Under the pieces are notes generated by a model that did not search any database, was not told the DNA's origin, and worked only from the letters and a program-made list of their open reading frames with translations. This document shows, piece after piece, positions 19,077-27,099 of a stretch of DNA of 40,284 nt. Source of the DNA: Spirosoma fluviale. GTDB taxonomy: Bacteria; Bacteroidota; Bacteroidia; Cytophagales; Cyclobacteriaceae. The stretch lies in the NCBI GenBank assembly GCA_945868725.1, contig CAMBMU010000017.1:1-40284 (forward strand), in the 5' to 3' direction. Made by a program: the position numbers and the translations under genes. How positions within the stretch are numbered: position 1 is the first letter of the stretch; each line of letters begins with the position of its first letter.

Positions 19077-20252
19077 TTACTTCAGTCTTCTCCGCTTCAT
19101 TTCTTTGCGGACCAGTTCAAACTCCCGACTGCTTTGACCGGCTATGGAGGAGTTTTCGGATGCACGCCTACTCAAGTAAGGCATCACTTTCTCTACGGGG
19201 CCATAAGGCACATATTTCACCACCCGATAGCCCGCACTCGCAAGGTTGTAGGAAATCGAATCACTCATTCCATATAGCTGCGAAAAGTATACCAGATCTG
19301 ATTTTGGATCGATTTGGTACTGGTCCATCAATTCGGTAAGTGTAAGCGTACTCTTATCGTTGTGCGTAGCGCAGACCAAATGAATTCCTTCTTGTGCAGC
19401 GTAGGCTATCGCCAAATCGTAATCTCGGTCTGTCGCTTCTTTGTTTGGCTGGATCGGATCAAGGTAGCCTTCTGCCAGTGCACGTGCGCGCTCTTTTTCC
19501 ATGTAGGCCCCACGAACGGGTTTGGCCCCTAAGAAGTAGCCCTGTTCTTTAGCCACCTGATGGTCTTTCTTTAGCCGCTCCAAAGAATCGTGTCGATACA
19601 TCTGGTAGGTAGTATAGACCACACAACGTTCTTTGTTGTAGATGGCCATGGCCCGGTAGGCCATATCGTCAATTACATCTTGAAACCAGCTTTCCTCGGC
19701 ATCCACCAAGATTTTTAATCCCAGGTCATGCGCTGTTTTGCAAAGTCGATCTACTCGATTTTCGAGTCGAGCCAAAGCATCTTGCTCGGTGGAAGTCAAC
19801 GACTGCTTTGCTTGAATTTTTTCTAGGATCCGATAATCCCCAAGTCCGGTCACCTTAAACACCCCAAAGGGCATGTAATCCGTCTTGGCAGATTCTACCA
19901 TGGTTTGGTAAATTTCTTCTGTTGTAGCTTCAAAACTCGCTTCATCTCCTTTTCCTTCTACAGAGAGGTCCAAAATGGAATGGACTCCATAGTTGGCTAA
20001 AAGTTGACAAGCCAATACAGTCTCTTTAATTGTTTCTCCTCCACAAAAATGCCCGAACATGGTTTTTTTGAGGATGCCTTTGATCGGTAGACGAAGTTGA
20101 AAAGAAAGGTTTGCAAGCTTTATTCCAAGGTTTGAGAGCCAATTTTTATTGAGTGTGGCAAAAATCAGATACATCTTTCGAAGATCTGCATTACTCTTGG
20201 AAGCAAAAGCAACTTCCAAATTCTCAAAAGAAATAGTGGGCTTGACGGGCAT
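19077..20252 (-). CDS. Proline dehydrogenase
   Basis: The protein has 391 residues from MPVKPTISFENLEVAF. An ATG 9 bp upstream at 20261 is possible, but it would lie almost at the transcription start predicted by the -7 box at 20271-20278. The TIM-barrel motifs of FAD-dependent ProDH are present: LKILVDAEESWFQ, VYTTYQMYRHDSLERL, GAKPVRGAYMEKERA and the C-terminal YVPYGPVEKVMPYLSRRASENSS with the conserved R-R-x-x-E-N that binds proline. It oxidises proline to pyrroline-5-carboxylate. It is a monofunctional enzyme; no P5C dehydrogenase gene is adjacent. Confidence 0.93.
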   Translation of the reverse strand: MPVKPTISFENLEVAFASKSNADLRKMYLIFATLNKNWLSNLGIKLANLSFQLRLPIKGILKKTMFGHFCGGETIKETVLACQLLANYGVHSILDLSVEGKGDEASFEATTEEIYQTMVESAKTDYMPFGVFKVTGLGDYRILEKIQAKQSLTSTEQDALARLENRVDRLCKTAHDLGLKILVDAEESWFQDVIDDMAYRAMAIYNKERCVVYTTYQMYRHDSLERLKKDHQVAKEQGYFLGAKPVRGAYMEKERARALAEGYLDPIQPNKEATDRDYDLAIAYAAQEGIHLVCATHNDKSTLTLTELMDQYQIDPKSDLVYFSQLYGMSDSISYNLASAGYRVVKYVPYGPVEKVMPYLSRRASENSSIAGQSSREFELVRKEMKRRRLK

Positions 20253-20270
20253 AGCGCGCATTTATGGGGG

Positions 20271-20278
20271 CAAATATA
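20271..20278 (-). promoter_or_regulatory. -7 box for proline dehydrogenase
   Basis: On the minus strand this reads TATATTTG, an exact match to TAnnTTTG, 18 bp upstream of the chosen ATG at 20252. I do not see a TTG at the -33 position. Confidence 0.45.
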
Positions 20279-20614
20279 GTAGAAAAACAGAGTCACTTGG
20301 GTTTTGTTTGGGAATTCAACCTCGGAAAAAAGCTGGATTTTTAGTCTGCAAGAAATCTTGACACAATTCCCCTTCGATTTCAGACAACAAACAACTTTTT
20401 CCTTCTTGAAAGATTAGCTATTCGGGAAATCTTGGTCATTTCAGATCTTTGCAGTAGGCTATGACTTTAAAAAAAAATATTTAAACCATTATTTCTAATT
20501 ATGAAAAAAGGGCAAAATTTTATTTTGAATCCAGAATTTCAATTCATTCAAATTAGAATTATTTAAAAGTTTGTCGCAATCCATTGAAGAAATGATAATG
20601 GAAATGCGTGAAAA
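20279..20614. other. Gene-free A/T-rich spacer upstream of the aromatic operon
   Basis: About 340 bp between the proline dehydrogenase promoter and the aromatic operon leader hold no convincing gene on either strand. It is A/T-rich with several poly-A tracts (for example near 20468-20480), and may hold regulatory sites I cannot identify. A 72-codon minus-strand reading frame at 20495-20713 is low-complexity, lies partly opposite the leader peptide and is not supported. Confidence 0.6.
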
Positions 20615-20622
20615 TAATTTTG
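20615..20622 (+). promoter_or_regulatory. Possible -7 box of the aromatic amino acid operon
   Basis: TAATTTTG is an exact TAnnTTTG match 31 bp upstream of the leader-peptide ATG, which would give a short 5' leader of about 25 nt. The -33 TTG is missing at the ideal spacing; the nearest TTG (20584-20586) is 28 bp away, so the assignment is tentative. Confidence 0.4.
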
Positions 20623-20653
20623 CTTTTAAAAAATTGCGGATTACCTTTACATC

Positions 20654-20749
20654 ATGTTCATCACAGCCGTAATCTGGTTTAGCTTCTTTTACTTTTATTT
20701 TCGACCTAAACATCGAATCGGAGCTGTGTATTGTCTAGCCAAAAACTAA
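20654..20749 (+). CDS. Aromatic leader peptide of a transcription attenuator
   Basis: This is a 31-codon reading frame with ATG at 20654 and TAA at 20747-20749. Codons 8-16 (20675-20701) read W-F-S-F-F-Y-F-Y-F, so eight of nine are Trp, Phe or Tyr; with F2 and Y26, ten of 31 residues are aromatic. It lies 66 bp upstream of a six-gene operon making phenylalanine and tyrosine, and an intrinsic terminator sits between them. This is the layout of a ribosome-mediated attenuator, as in the pheA and trp leaders of enterobacteria. When charged aromatic tRNAs are scarce, a ribosome stalled in this run would leave 20713-20725 free to form the antiterminator. Translation has not been shown; the call rests on composition, position and RNA pairing. 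Confidence 0.85.
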   Translation: MFITAVIWFSFFYFYFRPKHRIGAVYCLAKN

Positions 20750-20779
20750 AAAAACATCACATATAAAAGCCCGATTCGA
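20713..20779 (+). promoter_or_regulatory. Antiterminator structure of the aromatic attenuator
   Basis: TCGAATCGG-A-GCT at 20713-20725 can pair with AGCCCGATTCGA at 20768-20779, giving 12 base pairs with one bulged A (20722). The downstream partner contains most of the 5' arm of the terminator (20765-20774), so the two structures exclude each other. The upstream partner begins 12 nt after the last aromatic codon, just outside a ribosome stalled there. GCTGTG at 20723-20728 can instead pair with CACAGC at 20662-20667, a possible competing early hairpin. Confidence 0.75.
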
Positions 20780-20798
20780 AAGAGTCGGGCTTTTTTTT
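20765..20798 (+). terminator. Attenuator terminator upstream of the aromatic operon
   Basis: AAAAGCCCGA (20765-20774) pairs with TCGGGCTTTT (20785-20794) around a 10-nt loop, followed by T residues to 20798. It lies 17 bp before the ATG of the first operon gene and after a leader peptide, so it is placed to abort transcription of the operon rather than to end an upstream gene. Confidence 0.9.
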
Positions 20799-20815
20799 AT
20801 TTAACCGTAGGTACT

Positions 20816-21913
20816 ATGAAGCCGCACAAGCAAATTAAAGATTGGGGCCTTGGTCTCAGCAACCCAATGATCATCGGAGGCCCCTGCTCTGCAGAAACTC
20901 CCGAACAGATTGCACAAATCTGTTCCGAGATGAAGGAAAATCAAATCATCCCCCAGGTATTCCGAGCAGGAATTTGGAAGCCCCGCACACGACCTGGATC
21001 GTTTGAAGGCGTTGGAGAAGAAGGATTGAAGTGGATGGAGATTGTTCGAGATGAACTACATATTCCAGTCACAGTAGAAGTGGGTAATGCCGCTCACGTA
21101 GAAATGGCACTCAAGCACAACATAGAAATTTTATGGATTGGGGCGCGTACTACGGTTAATCCATTTGCAGTGCAAGAAATTGCAGAGGCCCTTCGCGGAG
21201 TAGATATTCCGGTAATGGTCAAAAATCCAATGAATCCAGACTTGGAGCTTTGGATGGGGGCTCTGGAACGCATGTATGCCGTGGGCATCACAAAGCTAGC
21301 GGCTATACACCGAGGATTTTCGGATGCTTATGACAAGCGCTACCGCAACAAGCCCAACTGGTCTATGCCAATTCATCTGAAGCGGGAGTGGACAGGGATG
21401 GAAGTAATCAACGACCCTTCACACATTGTGGGGCGTAGAGACGGCTTGCTAGAGGTTGCCCAAAGCGCCATGAATTTTGGCTTGGATGGTTTGATGATTG
21501 AAACCCACCACGATCCAGACAAAGCTTGGTCGGACGCCAAGCAGCAAGTTACCCCGCGCAGATTAAAGGAGATGATTGACTCCATTGATTTCAAGGAAAA
21601 CTTGGAAAACATGAAGCCAGATGAGAAGTTGTTCGATCTGCGACGCGCATTAGACCACTTGGACGATCAGCTTTTGGATATTTTACAAGAACGCTTTTCG
21701 ATTGTTGACCAGATTGGGGCCCACAAGCGAGCCCGCCACCTGACCGTATTTCAATCCGATCGATGGAAAGAGGTGATGGATTCCAGAACTGAAAAGGGAG
21801 TCAAAAAACAACTGAGCGAAAAATTCATGAAAGAACTGCTCTACTGCATCCATGAGGAGTCTGTCAAGCGTCAAGAAAGACAACTTCGGGAAGTGGAGCC
21901 AATCCAAAAATAA
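20816..21913 (+). CDS. DAHP synthase / chorismate mutase fusion
   Basis: This is a 365-residue bifunctional enzyme. Residues 1-260 are a type I-beta DAHP synthase with GGPCSAE, FRAGIWKPRTRPGSFEGVG (as separate motifs), VKNPMN, IHRGF and DPSHIVGRRDG. It condenses phosphoenolpyruvate and erythrose-4-phosphate, the first shikimate step. Residues 270-355 are an AroQ-type chorismate mutase (LRRALDHLDDQLLDILQERF, IGAHKR), turning chorismate into prephenate. The fusion joins the first step with the branch point to Phe and Tyr and usually allows prephenate or chorismate feedback. It is the first gene of the operon and lies directly behind the attenuator. Confidence 0.95.
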   Translation: MKPHKQIKDWGLGLSNPMIIGGPCSAETPEQIAQICSEMKENQIIPQVFRAGIWKPRTRPGSFEGVGEEGLKWMEIVRDELHIPVTVEVGNAAHVEMALKHNIEILWIGARTTVNPFAVQEIAEALRGVDIPVMVKNPMNPDLELWMGALERMYAVGITKLAAIHRGFSDAYDKRYRNKPNWSMPIHLKREWTGMEVINDPSHIVGRRDGLLEVAQSAMNFGLDGLMIETHHDPDKAWSDAKQQVTPRRLKEMIDSIDFKENLENMKPDEKLFDLRRALDHLDDQLLDILQERFSIVDQIGAHKRARHLTVFQSDRWKEVMDSRTEKGVKKQLSEKFMKELLYCIHEESVKRQERQLREVEPIQK

Positions 21914-21918
21914 AACAC

Positions 21919-21955
21919 AGCCCTTCTTCGCTATTCCATTGCTAGCGGGAAGGCT
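21919..21955 (+). other. Intra-operonic hairpin before aroB
   Basis: AGCC, TTC and CGCTA on the left pair with TAGCG, GAA and GGCT on the right around a 9-nt loop, with small internal bulges. No T-run follows, so it is not a standard terminator. It may stabilise the 3' end of the first cistron or be a processing site. Confidence 0.35.
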
Positions 21956-21986
21956 GCTAACTTTACCTCCTAGACCAATTTGATCT

Positions 21987-23030
21987 GTGGAAACCGTACT
22001 CTTCACAACTGACATTCAAAACTCCCTCGCAGAGGTGCTTCGGGCTCGAAGCTATTCCAGATTGGTAGTACTCACTGATGAGAACACCCGTGAGCATTGC
22101 CTGCCCTTGATTCAGGATGCTTTACCTTCAGATGTCCTCCTCATTACAGTACCTGCAGGGGAGCAGCACAAAACGCTGGAAACATGCTCCGTCATTTGGA
22201 CAGCAATGACCGAAGCAGTGCTCGATCGGCAGGCGCTAGTCATCAATTTAGGTGGTGGAGTGATTGGCGATATGGGTGGATTTTGCGCAAGCGTCTACAA
22301 AAGAGGGGTTCCATTTTTGACTATTCCTACTACACTACTTTCACAGGTAGATGCGAGTGTTGGCGGGAAACTAGGGATAGACTACATGGGATTTAAAAAT
22401 CACCTAGGAGTATTTCAACTTCCAGAAATAGTTCTAATCGCCCCTTCATTTCTCGCTACGCTCCCACCCCGCGAGTTACGTTCTGGCTATGCAGAAGTAA
22501 TCAAACATGGACTAATCCGAGATATTGCTTTTTTCCGGTCCTTACCTAGCCTCAATTGGGAAAAGCAAGACTGGACCCGGGTGATTCGGCATTCCGTAGG
22601 AGTTAAAAAAGCAGTAGTGGAGGTAGACCCTAAAGAAGCTGGACTTCGGAAAATTCTCAATTTTGGACACAGCATCGGTCATGCAGTAGAGTCTTTTTAC
22701 CTAACTAGTTCCAATCCACTCCTCCATGGGGAGGCCATTGCAATGGGGATGATCGCAGAGGGATTTTTATCCTTCGAGAAAATAGGATTGAGCTTCGAAG
22801 AACTAAACGAGCTAAGCCACAAGTTGCTCCAGGTATTTGGAAAAGTGACCTTGAATCCAAAAGACCTAGATGCAATCTTGGACCTCTGTGCCCAGGACAA
22901 AAAAAACGAAGGGAATACACAACTTTTCTCTCTTCTTCCAACCCTTGGGGATTGCAGCTTCAACATTCCCGTGACCTCTGAGGAGATCAAACATGCGATC
23001 ATCTACTACCAACAACTGCCCTTGGCCTAA
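21987..23030 (+). CDS. aroB: 3-dehydroquinate synthase
   Basis: This 347-residue protein starts at a GTG: an in-frame TGA lies at 21981-21983, so no earlier start is possible. The NAD-binding GGGVIGDMGGF is at 89-99, followed by YKRGVPFLTIPTTLLSQVDASVGGK (as motifs). Zinc-ligand regions are GYAEVIKHG, LNFGHSIGHAVE and LLHGEAIAMGM. It converts DAHP to 3-dehydroquinate, the second shikimate step. The stop TAA overlaps the aroA ATG by 1 bp (TAATG), so the two are translationally coupled. The GTG start and the hairpin upstream may lower its translation relative to the first gene. Confidence 0.96.
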   Translation: METVLFTTDIQNSLAEVLRARSYSRLVVLTDENTREHCLPLIQDALPSDVLLITVPAGEQHKTLETCSVIWTAMTEAVLDRQALVINLGGGVIGDMGGFCASVYKRGVPFLTIPTTLLSQVDASVGGKLGIDYMGFKNHLGVFQLPEIVLIAPSFLATLPPRELRSGYAEVIKHGLIRDIAFFRSLPSLNWEKQDWTRVIRHSVGVKKAVVEVDPKEAGLRKILNFGHSIGHAVESFYLTSSNPLLHGEAIAMGMIAEGFLSFEKIGLSFEELNELSHKLLQVFGKVTLNPKDLDAILDLCAQDKKNEGNTQLFSLLPTLGDCSFNIPVTSEEIKHAIIYYQQLPLA

Positions 23031-24283
23031 TGGATTATCAAAAAATACAGCTTTTGCAGCTCACACAAAAAAATGAGTTCTCGCGGGTGCACATCCCCCT
23101 CCCCTCCTCTAAGAGCGAATCCAACCGTGCATTGGTGATTGATGCCTTGACGGAAGGAAAAAATACGCTCAAAAATCTGGCAGAGGCCCGTGATACCCAA
23201 ACGATGATCCGGCTGCTGCGCACCAATCCAGCTGTTTTTGATGTGCTAGATGCAGGCACGACGATGCGATTTTTAACTGCTTTGGCAGCAGTCACCAACC
23301 AACAAAAAGTAATGACAGGCACACCTCGAATGTGCGAGCGTCCCATCGGTATTTTGGTGGATGCCTTGCGCAGCCTAGGTGCTGAGATACATTACCTAGG
23401 TGCCGAAGGCTATCCTCCTCTTGCTGTACAAGGATTGACTGAGCAACTCACCAATCAAATCCGAATTCGCGGAGATGTGTCCAGTCAATACATTTCGGCA
23501 CTCTTGATGATCGCCCCTGTTTTACCTCAAGGCTTGGAATTGGAACTTGAAGGCAAGGTTGGAAGCCGTACCTACATCGAAATGACCCTAGAGCTGATGG
23601 CACAGTTTGGAATTGTGTACAGCTGGGAAGAAAACACCATCAAAATCAGCCCTCAAACTTACCAATCCACCCAATTCACTGTGGAGAGCGATTGGTCAGG
23701 CGCCAGCTACTGGTTTAGCTTGTTGGCCTGTGCGGATGAAGGATCTTTTTTCCTAGAAGGGCTAAAGTCTCAAAGTCTCCAAGGAGATGCCGCCATAGTT
23801 GAGATCATGTCACATTTGGGAATACGAAGCAGCTTTCAAGAAGGCGGTCTACTCCTAGAAAAGCAAGCCGTATCTGGCCTCAAAGACTGGGATTTTACAC
23901 ACTGCCCAGACTTGGCTCAGACCGTAGCAGTTACCTGTGCTATTTTGGGTCAAAACACCGTGTTTACAGGACTAGAAAGTTTGCGTATCAAGGAAACAGA
24001 TCGAATCTATGCCTTGCAGCAGGAATTGGCAAAGTTTAATGCTGAATTGAGGGAAATAGCTGCCAACACTTTTCAAGTCATCCCATCGGTCACTATGCCG
24101 AGAATAGTGCAAATTTACACCTACGAGGACCACCGCATGGCCATGGCCTTTATGCCCTTGGTTACGAAAACCAAAGTACAGATTGAAGACCCAGAAGTAG
24201 TCAACAAATCCTATCCAAGCTTTTGGAAGCAGGTAGCCTTAACAGGCATTCATCAAGAATCATATAGTCCAGGCATCCTATGA
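23030..24283 (+). CDS. aroA: 5-enolpyruvylshikimate-3-phosphate (EPSP) synthase
   Basis: This 417-residue two-domain inside-out alpha/beta barrel has PSSKSESNRA (24-34), DAGTTMRFL (74-82), CERPIGILVDALRSLGA, SLRIKETDRIYAL and EDHRMAMAF. It adds enolpyruvate to shikimate-3-phosphate. In the phosphoenolpyruvate-site loop the usual NAGTAMRP is DAGTTMRF: Thr replaces Ala and Phe replaces the Pro equivalent to E. coli P101. It overlaps pheA by 4 bp and aroB by 1 bp. The shikimate genes aroD, aroE, aroK and aroC are not in this operon. Confidence 0.95.
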   Translation: MDYQKIQLLQLTQKNEFSRVHIPLPSSKSESNRALVIDALTEGKNTLKNLAEARDTQTMIRLLRTNPAVFDVLDAGTTMRFLTALAAVTNQQKVMTGTPRMCERPIGILVDALRSLGAEIHYLGAEGYPPLAVQGLTEQLTNQIRIRGDVSSQYISALLMIAPVLPQGLELELEGKVGSRTYIEMTLELMAQFGIVYSWEENTIKISPQTYQSTQFTVESDWSGASYWFSLLACADEGSFFLEGLKSQSLQGDAAIVEIMSHLGIRSSFQEGGLLLEKQAVSGLKDWDFTHCPDLAQTVAVTCAILGQNTVFTGLESLRIKETDRIYALQQELAKFNAELREIAANTFQVIPSVTMPRIVQIYTYEDHRMAMAFMPLVTKTKVQIEDPEVVNKSYPSFWKQVALTGIHQESYSPGIL

Positions 24284-25098
24284 AAGTAGCAATTCAAGGA
24301 ATTTCTGGGTCCTTCCACCACCAAGTAGCCCTTTTGAATTTTGGGAAAGAAGCCCAAGTTCTTCCTTTTTTGAGCTTTGAAGAGGTAGCCAAGTCGGTCG
24401 CCTCAGGAGCTGCGGAAGTGGGCATCATGGCAATAGAAAACTCTATAGCAGGTGCTATTTTACCGAATTACGATCTGATAGATCGCTATGAACTTTTTAT
24501 TCATGAGGAATATTACTTACCCATTTCCCATCAGTTCATGGCATTACCTGGGCAAACTATTGCCGATATTTCCGAGGTCCGCTCCCATCCCATGGCTTTG
24601 CTGCAGTGCAAAACTTTTTTCTCCCAACAGCCTCAAATTAAACTGATTGATGACTTAGACACTGCTTCAGTGGCCAAGCGCATCCAGGAGGAGAAACTGC
24701 GAGGGGTCGCAGCCATTGCTAGCGAAATCGCTGCTGAAACCTATGGATTAGAGATTCTAGCACCACATATTCAAACAGTACAAGATAATTTCACCCGGTT
24801 TATCTTTCTAACAAAAGAAAAATCAAAACGCAAGGAGGCCCCCAACAAGGTTTCCTTTAAAATTACCATCCGCAATGAGGCGGGTGGATTGGCAAAGCTC
24901 TTGACGATGCTAGCGGACAAAAACCTGAATTTGAGTAAAATTCAATCCATTCCTTTGATGGACAAGCCATGGGATTATGCCTTTTTTATCGATGCGGAAT
25001 TTGCTGCCGAGCAGGCCTACCACGAAGCTGTGGAGCAAATGAAAACGGAATATGGTGAATTAAAGATTTTTGGAGAATATAAGAGTAGAAAAGGATGA
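24280..25098 (+). CDS. pheA: Prephenate dehydratase
   Basis: This 272-residue protein has a catalytic PDT domain (1-180) with GIMAIENSIAGAI and the active-site T172-R173-F174 in DNFTRF. It decarboxylates and dehydrates prephenate to phenylpyruvate. An ACT domain follows at 191-272. Its usual phenylalanine-binding motifs GALV and ESRP are GGLA (202-205) and QSIP (222-225) here, so binding of Phe as a feedback ligand may be altered. No chorismate mutase domain is attached, since that activity is fused to DAHP synthase. It overlaps both neighbours by 4 bp. Confidence 0.94.
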   Translation: MKVAIQGISGSFHHQVALLNFGKEAQVLPFLSFEEVAKSVASGAAEVGIMAIENSIAGAILPNYDLIDRYELFIHEEYYLPISHQFMALPGQTIADISEVRSHPMALLQCKTFFSQQPQIKLIDDLDTASVAKRIQEEKLRGVAAIASEIAAETYGLEILAPHIQTVQDNFTRFIFLTKEKSKRKEAPNKVSFKITIRNEAGGLAKLLTMLADKNLNLSKIQSIPLMDKPWDYAFFIDAEFAAEQAYHEAVEQMKTEYGELKIFGEYKSRKG

Positions 25099-26249
25099 AG
25101 GGATTTGCAAACAGGATTCAAGGGGTAGAGGAATACTATTTTTCTGCCAAGCTACGGGAGGTCAATCGCCTGATCGCAGAAGGAAAGCCAATCCTAAATT
25201 TAGGAATTGGTTCACCCGATCTAGCACCCGACCGCAGCGTGATTGAAGCCTTAAAGTTCACGGCTGAAAATGAGCAGGCCCACGGGTACCAAGGGTATCA
25301 AGGTATACCACAATTGCGGGAGGCAATGGCTACCTATTATGAAAATGCATTTGGAGTGCAGCTGGATCCCAATGCTGAGATCCTTCCCTTGATGGGTTCA
25401 AAGGAGGGAATTTTTCAGGTAAGCATGGCCTTTTTGAATCCAGGAGATCAGGTACTAATTCCCAATCCAGGCTATCCCACCTACACAGCAGTCACCCAAT
25501 TGCTTGGGGCAAATCCGATTTACTACAACTTGGATTTGAGCAGGCAGGGGCGCCCCAATTTGGAGGAACTCGAACAACTGGATTTAACAAAGGTAAAATT
25601 GATGTGGATCAATTACCCGCATATGCCTACCGGAGCCGCGGGCTCAAAGGAACTACTTTTAGAGCTTATTGCCTTTGCAAAGCGGCATGCTATTTTACTG
25701 GTACATGACAATCCCTATAGCCATATTTTAAACCCCTCCCCTAAAAGCTTGCTGGCATTGCCAGGAGGCAAAGAGGTGGGCTTGGAACTCAACTCACTCA
25801 GTAAGACCTTCAATATCCCTGGCTGGCGTGTGGGCATGCTTTGCGGAAAAGCCGAATGGATTGAAGCTGCACTAAAGGTCAAATCCAACATGGATTCGGG
25901 CATGTTTTTGGGACTTCAAAAAGGTGCAATTGCAGCCCTTTCACTCGAAAAAGGCTGGTTTGACCGACAAAATGAAATCTATACTGCCCGTCGTAAGTTG
26001 GTTTGGACTCTTGCTGATCACTTGGGATTGAGCTATGACCGAGAAGCTACCGGCCTATTTGTCTGGTGCCGCGTACCTGCGGGCAGCTCTGCAGAGGAGT
26101 TAGTTGACCAGTTACTTTATGAAAAAAACATCTTCATTACTCCTGGAAAAATTTTTGGTTCGGAGGGAAACGATTATGTCCGAATCTCTCTTTGCCTCCA
26201 AGAGTTTAAAATCTTAGAAGCCATTAACCGCATCAAACCTATAAGCTAG
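25095..26249 (+). CDS. Class I/II PLP aminotransferase of the aromatic operon
   Basis: This 384-residue fold-type I aminotransferase has LNLGIGSPDLAP, HDNPYSH (D205, Y208) and SLSKTFNIPGWRVG with the PLP lysine at K237. Its position between pheA and tyrA indicates transamination of phenylpyruvate and 4-hydroxyphenylpyruvate to Phe and Tyr (inference from context). The conserved NPTG motif reads HMPTG (176-180), so Met177 replaces the Asn that normally hydrogen-bonds the PLP ring oxygen. The protein is otherwise full length and intact. LL-diaminopimelate or aspartate aminotransferase activity is a less likely alternative. Confidence 0.9.
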   Translation: MKGFANRIQGVEEYYFSAKLREVNRLIAEGKPILNLGIGSPDLAPDRSVIEALKFTAENEQAHGYQGYQGIPQLREAMATYYENAFGVQLDPNAEILPLMGSKEGIFQVSMAFLNPGDQVLIPNPGYPTYTAVTQLLGANPIYYNLDLSRQGRPNLEELEQLDLTKVKLMWINYPHMPTGAAGSKELLLELIAFAKRHAILLVHDNPYSHILNPSPKSLLALPGGKEVGLELNSLSKTFNIPGWRVGMLCGKAEWIEAALKVKSNMDSGMFLGLQKGAIAALSLEKGWFDRQNEIYTARRKLVWTLADHLGLSYDREATGLFVWCRVPAGSSAEELVDQLLYEKNIFITPGKIFGSEGNDYVRISLCLQEFKILEAINRIKPIS

Positions 26250-26250
26250 C

Positions 26251-27099
26251 ATGAAAAAAATACATTTGATTGGATTAGGCCTCTTGGGAGGATCCTTTGC
26301 CCTCGCTGCCAAACAAAAATTTCCAAACCTCCAGCTTACTGGTCAGGATACCAATCCACAGCACCTCCAAGATGCACTTGCATTAGGTATCATCGCGGAA
26401 GAGGCTTCCCTACCCGATGCGGATGCAGATCTGGTGATTTTAGCTACCCCAGCCAACAGCTTGGGAGAGCTACTTCTCAAGACCTTGGATCAAGTCGGCC
26501 CGAGTACCCTGGTCTTTGATTTGGGATCTACCAAAGCAAAACTTTGCAGTTTGGTAGCATCGCACCCCAAAAGATCCCAGTACCTCGCTGCCCACCCCAT
26601 CGCAGGAACTGAGTATTCTGGTCCTAAGGCAGCAAATGCAGAGCTTTTGGATAGAAAAGTGATGATTCTCTGTGAAATGGAAAAAACAGACCTTCACTTG
26701 AAGGAAAAAGCCTATCGTTTCTTTGATGCCCTGAACTTGAAACTTCGGTTTATGGATCCCGAAGAACACGATCGCCATTTGGCCTATGTATCCCATCTCT
26801 CCCACCTGACTTCATTTATGTTGGGCAAAACCGTACTCCAAAAAATGGAAGACGAGAAAAATATTTTTGATATGGCAGGGTCTGGATTTTCCTCCACCGT
26901 TCGCCTTGCCAAATCTAGCCCTGACATGTGGGCTCCCATTTTTATTGAAAACAAAGAGAATGTCTTGGCTTCTTTGGATGGATATATTGCAAATCTCAGT
27001 GCCTTCCGTGAAAAAATCGCAGCCGAAGATGGCGAGGGATTGAAAAAAGAAATGGAAGAAATCAACGCCATCCGTGGGATTTTGGATTTTGGAAAATAA
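26251..27099 (+). CDS. tyrA: Prephenate dehydrogenase
   Basis: This 282-residue protein has an N-terminal Rossmann domain with GLGLLGGS at 8-15, then DLGSTKAKL, HPIAGTEYSGP and the helical HDRHLAYVSHLSH that carries the catalytic histidine. It oxidatively decarboxylates prephenate to 4-hydroxyphenylpyruvate for tyrosine. It has no ACT or chorismate mutase domain. It starts 1 bp after the aminotransferase stop and is the last gene of the operon, which therefore covers both branches from prephenate. Confidence 0.95.
   Translation: MKKIHLIGLGLLGGSFALAAKQKFPNLQLTGQDTNPQHLQDALALGIIAEEASLPDADADLVILATPANSLGELLLKTLDQVGPSTLVFDLGSTKAKLCSLVASHPKRSQYLAAHPIAGTEYSGPKAANAELLDRKVMILCEMEKTDLHLKEKAYRFFDALNLKLRFMDPEEHDRHLAYVSHLSHLTSFMLGKTVLQKMEDEKNIFDMAGSGFSSTVRLAKSSPDMWAPIFIENKENVLASLDGYIANLSAFREKIAAEDGEGLKKEMEEINAIRGILDFGK

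Follow-up and report, generated by a model that had tools for sequence, protein, structure and literature searches.

The window, meaning the whole stretch of 40,284 nucleotides analysed here, belongs to a genome of 2.8 Mb that is 82% complete and lies in 164 contigs. Six genes run along its plus strand from 20816 to 27099 with overlaps or with gaps of at most 73 nt, and each matches the family expected of the phenylalanine and tyrosine operon that an earlier, sequence-only reading of this DNA had placed behind an attenuator (Table 1). The upstream neighbour, encoding proline dehydrogenase, occupies 19077-20261 on the minus strand; because of this orientation, the terminator in front of the operon does not serve an upstream plus-strand gene.

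Table 1. Features of the putative attenuator and of the operon behind it, in window coordinates.
Feature	Position	Strand	Evidence or remark
-33 promoter element TTTG	20619..20622	+	G of TTG at -32 from leader ATG in 77/80 elements
-7 box TACCTTTA	20642..20649	+	predicted +1 = 20654
Leader peptide ORF, 31 codons + stop	20654..20749	+	ORF translation, relatives, ORF statistics
Region 1, 5' arm of protector 1:2 (CACAGC)	20662..20667	+	pairing analysis
Aromatic codon run, codons 8-16 (WFSFFYFYF)	20675..20701	+	translation, tabulated relatives
Region 2: 20713-20725, antiterminator with region 3; 20723-20728, protector with region 1	20713..20728	+	
Intrinsic terminator hairpin 3:4, then T-run	20765..20794	+	pattern scan, folding, conservation
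Region 3, common to antiterminator and terminator	20768..20779	+	pairing, conservation
DAHP synthase / chorismate mutase fusion	20816..21913	+	PF00793, PF01817
aroB, 3-dehydroquinate synthase	21987..23030	+	TIGR01357 above cut-off
aroA, EPSP synthase	23030..24283	+	TIGR01356 above cut-off
Prephenate dehydratase (pheA type)	24280..25098	+	PF00800 above cut-off; NF008865 just below its cut-off
Class I/II aminotransferase	25095..26249	+	PF00155
Prephenate dehydrogenase (tyrA type)	26251..27099	+	NF006307 above cut-off; PF02153, PF20463

Attenuators of the E. coli type consist of a leader peptide with regulatory codons, a protector, an antiterminator and a terminator, with a biosynthetic operon downstream. 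In the window, the interval 20654-20749 translates as MFITAVIWFSFFYFYFRPKHRIGAVYCLAKN*, with the stop codon at 20747, and the peptide is hydrophobic. The 31-codon leader with eight aromatic codons out of nine that had been proposed is present, and no other ORF of the window matches it: eight aromatics within nine residues were unique to the leader among 423 ATG ORFs of 10-60 amino acids (215 on the plus strand and 208 on the minus strand of the whole window), the runner-up having six, and the maximum in 40 Markov-1 simulated windows never exceeded six. The short ORF thus carries a run of codons for the amino acids of the operon downstream, as an attenuator does.

An intrinsic terminator sits between the leader and the first gene. 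A pattern scan of 20200-21000 placed its stem at exactly 20765-20794, where shuffled sequence gives an expectation of 0.7 for the same scan; the stem comprises 13 pairs, and the folding energy of 20764-20796 is -20.7 kcal/mol (z -7.3). The competing antiterminator comprises 12 bp, with TCGAATCGG at 20713-20721 pairing with 20771-20779 and GCT at 20723-20725 pairing with 20768-20770. The protector is formed by CACAGC at 20662-20667 and GCTGTG at 20723-20728. The sequence-only reading had named all three pairings; each was recovered at its proposed coordinates, the antiterminator with a bulged A at 20722, and terminator and antiterminator are mutually exclusive since region 3 is common to both.

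Relatives' loci were gathered by a DAHP synthase scan, and the best 80 of 152 make up the close-relative sample. The nearest loci by DAHP synthase belong to MAGs titled Cytophagales, Cyclobacteriaceae, Bacteroidetes, Spirosoma fluviale and Algoriphagus, followed by named Algoriphagus species. The element was present in 78 of the 80 loci (75 by pattern and three by hand; 79/81 with the window) and absent from L004, which has an odd, longer match, and from L033, which has 195 nt upstream and a repeat insertion. The DAHP synthase match in L004 is 500 bases longer than elsewhere, through insertion or misassembly. A repeat-like insertion with CCATGCGAGATTCCATGTGACC lies just upstream of the DAHP synthase start in both L033 and L047; in L047 it falls between the terminator and the gene.

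With the window and L089, which came from the order-wide search described below, these relatives provide 80 elements. L083, L085, L087 and L088, minus-strand matches of that search read in their original orientation, yielded no leader for that reason and are duplicates of other loci in the sample. Codons were tabulated for 78 of them, leaving out L010 and L081 (indels) and padding L029 for a deleted codon. Codons 8, 9 and 11-16 were aromatic throughout, with a Ser at codon 11 of L061 as the sole exception; codons 9 and 16 were always TTT, codon 14 was always Phe and codon 15 always Tyr. Codon 8 was Tyr in 68 elements, Trp in five and Phe in five. When L010 is counted, six of the 80 elements (the window and five others) have Trp in the run, so that Phe and Tyr are the rule and Trp is a local variant. 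Of the mixed Phe, Tyr and Trp codons that had been pointed out, those for Phe and Tyr are general and that for Trp only local. On the DAHP synthase tree codon 8 requires five changes, one of them defining a Phe clade; some branches of Trp carriers are weak, and L029 was dropped from the Phe group since its 3-nt deletion shifts the register. By eye, L081 (Nitritalea; 1331-1480) has the conserved TTTTACTTTTACTTTCG DNA out of frame (LLLLS) and keeps an aromatic run just before it; its usual leader stop is lost, by compensated frameshift or sequencing error.

Stem conservation was evaluated in 31 aligned representatives, less than 93% alike, against 500 shuffles. For the terminator, 98.7% of cells were paired and four pairs had changed on both sides, as high as in none of the 500 shuffles. 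For the protector, 80.1% of cells were paired (1/500 shuffles as high) and 15 cells had changed on both sides (0/500), with a covariation score reached in 1/500; the number of its pairs with two-sided change, three (104/500), and its further pair types (283/500) were not beyond shuffles. At nt 10 of the protector, 12 rows have an A-U pair and 10 a G-C pair, a change that amounts to one event on the tree when rows with A-U or G-C only are considered. An element-by-element survey of 78 of the 80 elements (L064 and L081 left out) found the protector kept by other means as GCGC/GCGC (L012, L014), CGCTC/GAGC (L046) and CGGCTC/GAGCTG (L063), with a partner three bases further on in L089, and weakly paired in L002, L010, L023, L052, L057, L060 and L062. 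In a swap test over 64 distinct region 1/region 2 pairs, true partners averaged -10.03 kcal/mol vs -9.76 kcal/mol, and 186 of 10,000 permutations were as good, which lends the protector modest support. A protector that a stalled ribosome would mask is thus present in the window's clade, with the qualifications that these tests impose.

The antiterminator was near-invariant, with 97.6% of cells paired, and showed no compensatory change among the 31 representatives of the close family, as expected of a segment tied to two partners. Both the codon run and the three stems, on whose conservation in close relatives the sequence-only reading had staked its claim, are conserved; compensatory changes, which it had named as a check, were found in the terminator (the four pairs above) and in the protector, and not in the antiterminator. 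Sequence comparison establishes the leader, its codon run, the stems and the spacing to the promoter.

Since the near-invariant 2:3 pairing offers no covariation within the close family, we read distant loci. Forty loci from the order (181/194 genomes had a match) and 40 from the class (155/158) were hand-picked to spread over families, and a leader was scored as an ATG ORF with at least five aromatics in nine residues and a terminator within 160 nt, on the operon strand. Order-wide, leader and terminator occurred in 11/40 loci (12 leaders; reverse strand 0/40), namely in 8/9 loci of the window's own family and 3/31 of other families. Class-wide, they occurred in 11/40 loci (reverse strand 1/40); five class-wide loci are shorter than 6.5 kb (L162, L167, L177 with 443 bases, L181 and L183), and absence there says little. 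Leader ORFs with terminators thus precede aromatic operons in 22 of 80 hand-sampled loci beyond the 80 close relatives. For 10 of the 11 class-wide cases a next ORF of at least 90 amino acids was found, and all 10 begin, by eye, like prephenate dehydratase.

A competing 2:3 partner beat shuffles in 12/12 order-wide leaders (0 to 2.6% of shuffles match) and in 8/11 class-wide leaders (3% of shuffles or fewer), the second ORF of L160, which overlaps the first leader, being left out of the class-wide test. The test failed in L164 (11%), L167 (13%) and L185 (69%). By locus, a competing antiterminator of different sequence was found in 11/40 order-wide loci, eight of them in the same family, and in 8/40 class-wide loci. 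The evidence that an antiterminator excludes the terminator thus consists of conservation in the close family and of independent cases among the order-wide (12/12) and class-wide (8/11) leaders, and it suggests that the competing structure recurs in the class while the sequence differs. Distant protectors beat shuffles at 0.05 in only 1/12 order-wide leaders, with three more at 5.2-7%, and the protector may therefore be particular to the window's clade. Two side observations came from these surveys. L140, in order-wide genome G046, has two aromatic leaders in tandem, some 3.4 and 3.2 kb ahead of DAHP synthase; both have a terminator and a competing antiterminator of their own, and the pair may be a two-stage attenuator. 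In another genome (G050:C6:457479-460036), the close relative of the window's gene is preceded, 0.4 kb upstream and on the same strand, by a second DAHP synthase with 44% identity to the query.

The distant leaders bear on the possibility that the ORF encodes a functional membrane miniprotein and that the terminator is constitutive or leaky, with no sensing by ribosomes. The peptide's hydrophobic character and the strong conservation of RIG and the residues after it would suit such a protein. However, region 2, which is complementary to region 3, encodes RIGA, and the peptide ends vary, giving lengths of 26 to 31 amino acids. Distant leaders retain the aromatic run, the terminator and the competing antiterminator (20/23 tested) while the rest of the peptide differs, and in L081 the conserved DNA is, by eye, out of frame while an aromatic run is retained. 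We consider a miniprotein very unlikely.

Upstream of the leader, TTTG at 20619..20622 is what we take to be the -33 element of the Bacteroidota primary sigma factor. A sigma-70 type promoter was rejected: the scan gave two sites vs 1.9 in shuffles, none at the predicted start. The Bacteroidota TTG / TAnnTTTG promoter was used instead. A TAnnTTT[AG] box precedes the leader ATG in 80/80 elements, separated from it by 4 nt in 79 elements and by 5 nt in the remaining one; the final base of the pattern was widened to A or G after the elements had been inspected, and it is G in 50 and A in 30, including the window. The same 4-nt gap occurs in L112, L113 and L114, whose leaders otherwise differ, and is absent, by eye, from L115-L119 and from three trp leaders examined. 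In Flavobacterium psychrophilum, the sigma-A box TAnnTTTG is described as occupying -12 to -5 (PMC9723704). Because of that position and the 4-nt gap here, we place +1 on the A of the leader ATG. The leader transcript is therefore predicted to be leaderless, with a start that may differ by 1-2 nt.

Folding was computed for the RNA with a ribosome whose footprint reached 18 nt upstream and 12 nt downstream of the first A-site base. When the RNA of the window ended at 20790, the antiterminator had a probability of 0.89-0.97 with the A site on codon 8, 9, 11 or 12, and the terminator one of 0.89-1.0 with the A site on codon 13, 15, 16, 18 or the stop, or without a ribosome. Under a stalled ribosome, 2:3 fell from 0.9 (end 20790) to 0.34 (20791) and to near zero beyond; without a ribosome, the flip from 2:3 to 3:4 preceded this by one base. 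When a ribosome occupied the stop and folding was confined to the RNA downstream of it, 3:4 exceeded 0.5 at 20786. Minimum free energy folds of the complete region give the terminator, and at equilibrium the hairpin prevails in every ribosome state once free RNA reaches 20791. The equilibrium states thus differ by only a few bases of RNA length, so the choice between them would have to be kinetic.

These calculations were extended to the 80 elements. In RNA ending before region 4, 2:3 formed in 80/80 for each of seven A-site positions from codon 8 to codon 16, in 77/80 without a ribosome, and in 76/80 with a ribosome at the stop and pairing across it allowed. Near the stem end, one base before the hairpin prevails, 2:3 was favoured in only 23-37 of the 80 with the A site on codons 8-12. 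When pairing across a ribosome at the stop was excluded, region 2 paired with the leader start, at 0.94 in the window and above 0.5 in 70/80. Since 2:3 is favoured before region 4 even without a ribosome or with one at the stop, neither the on nor the off state would be reached without folding order or steric exclusion.

That the computed end state without a ribosome is the terminator would also fit a translation-coupling device, in which any lack of translation terminates transcription and amino acid sensing is minor; a leaderless start would likewise tie the element to the state of the ribosomes. Such a device leaves unexplained why the aromatic codons persist when the sequence around them changes, and we give it only a slight chance of being the element's main function. 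Least probable of all, to the point of being nearly negligible, is direct sensing of amino acid or tRNA by a riboswitch or T-box, with the ORF incidental: mutually exclusive stems do precede a biosynthetic operon, yet no Rfam family scored at its cut-off, whether in the window or in 20560-20830 searched with a relaxed threshold, and the codon run is the best-conserved part outside the stems.

The element is thus very probably a ribosome-mediated transcription attenuator of the classical 1:2 / 2:3 / 3:4 type that controls the six-gene Phe/Tyr operon, a reading that the sequence-only analysis had put forward and that analogous elements of different sequence before like operons elsewhere in the class support. 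For its operation, from the transcription start through stalling, kinetic folding order and termination to the response to amino acids, we infer the following sequence of events. Transcription would start on the leader AUG or no more than 1-2 nt away from it, and a ribosome would initiate on the 5'-terminal AUG. A lack of charged Phe-, Tyr- or (in this species) Trp-tRNA would make the ribosome stall early in the run, at codons 8-12, covering region 1 and leaving region 2 free. Region 2 would then capture region 3 before region 4 is made, the terminator would be delayed past the T-run, and the operon would be read. When aromatic tRNAs are charged, the ribosome would reach the stop at 20747 and come to lie between regions 2 and 3; behind it, region 2 would pair with region 1, and region 3 would be left to region 4, with termination in the T-run. 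The sequence-only reading had cautioned that a ribosome at the stop would not itself cover 20713-20725. The conserved protector, together with a ribosome positioned between 20725 and 20768, on which the off state would rest, offers an answer in the form of a model. In the window, codon 8 is Trp and Tyr first appears at codon 13, on the border of the stretch that is effective; the model therefore predicts that the window's species responds more strongly to Trp and Phe than to Tyr.

Trp supply in the same genome appears to be under a separate switch, since the locus with a trpE domain bears its own Trp leader, MTTNANMYGWWHHNSFLGRAQKAIAN, and terminator (L196:1303-1435); despite this leader, Bacteroid-trp (RF01692) has no covariance-model match at cut-off in the window or in its genome. 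Elsewhere in the genome, on the reverse strand of L197 upstream of hisG, a possible His-rich leader, MKSTAAILTFSLPAQELHLLHRFHHSS, lies close behind a TATATTTG box at the contig end, with no clear terminator by eye.

We compared the element with known systems. Phe_leader (RF01859) scored 15.7 bits vs a cut-off of 55 and Trp_leader (RF00513) 15.5 bits vs 41. The relaxed search of 20560-20830 (271 bases) produced 37 matches with E values of up to 10, none of which reached its cut-off; the highest-ranking, Thr_leader (20730-20799, 28 bits vs 55), was rejected, as it is below cut-off and spans the terminator. The element shares its general design with the E. coli Phe_leader and Trp_leader attenuators and differs from them in its mixed Phe and Tyr codons, its predicted leaderless start and the 21 nt between the antiterminator 5' arm and the stop codon. 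Like Bacteroid-trp, which is listed for Bacteroidetes (PMC2864571), it is a Bacteroidota leader; RF01692 matched in at least 5/59 genomes of the same genus group at E 0.001 or less, two of them over cut-off, and one trp leader, MKTIANKYWWWHSYSFQKEV in L153 (by eye), precedes a gene resembling the window genome's own trpE. Bacteroid-trp leaders have a Trp run and otherwise a different sequence, and in the three trp leaders examined the promoter box lies 9-11 nt before the ATG, vs 4 nt here.

Attenuation in Bacteroidota as such was already known. Besides Bacteroid-trp, the F. psychrophilum study describes strong indications of leader-peptide attenuation in front of amino acid operons and, at pheA and hisG, 5' elements that are conserved and structured and have no Rfam match (PMC9723704). 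The pheA element resembles that of the window in that the 5' region of a Bacteroidota aromatic gene is structured and conserved with no Rfam match, and differs in family and gene order; the section on it gives no leader sequence or mechanism (PMC9723704). Broadly, it and the pheA-first loci of this study are probably of one class. For Bacteroides thetaiotaomicron, long 5' UTRs are reported that contain short ORFs resembling leader peptides (PMC7366714), and attenuators have been predicted in Actinobacteria (PMC1262725). In the actinobacterium Streptomyces lividans, attenuator leader peptides for Trp, Leu, Ilv and others are described on leaderless transcripts (PMC8079986), as we propose for the window; their starts were measured, whereas ours is predicted. 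The points added here are the fixed 4-nt promoter spacing with the leaderless start predicted from it, the Tyr/Trp variation at codon 8, and the place of a ribosome at the stop between regions 2 and 3. The open-access text searched held no account of the window's element or of a leaderless Bacteroidota attenuator; subscription papers lay outside its scope, and the comparative study by Lopatovskaya and others may contain Bacteroidota cases.

The type of switch is thus well known, and the window's version is not in the RNA family database searched. Its mapped parts add detail to a kind of element that Bacteroid-trp and brief reports alone have so far represented in Bacteroidota. They also allow amino acid control to be tested in a phylum with atypical promoters and with translation starts not reliant on Shine-Dalgarno sequences (PMC9723704). 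More tentatively, and with the balance of probability somewhat against it, the elements may form a leaderless family in which the promoter is locked to the start codon and a 70S ribosome loads on the first nucleotide. Such a family would read both aromatic tRNA charging and 70S initiation, and some four exchanges between Tyr and Trp at codon 8 among the window's nearer relatives would have retuned its specificity. Leaderless mRNAs are reported to make up 5.5% in F. psychrophilum (PMC9723704), and about 3.7% of 5' UTRs in B. thetaiotaomicron to be shorter than 10 nt (PMC7366714). If the leaderless start is true, the element would be a natural assay for leaderless translation in Bacteroidota, and the Tyr/Trp exchange at codon 8 would be a natural experiment on sensor specificity.
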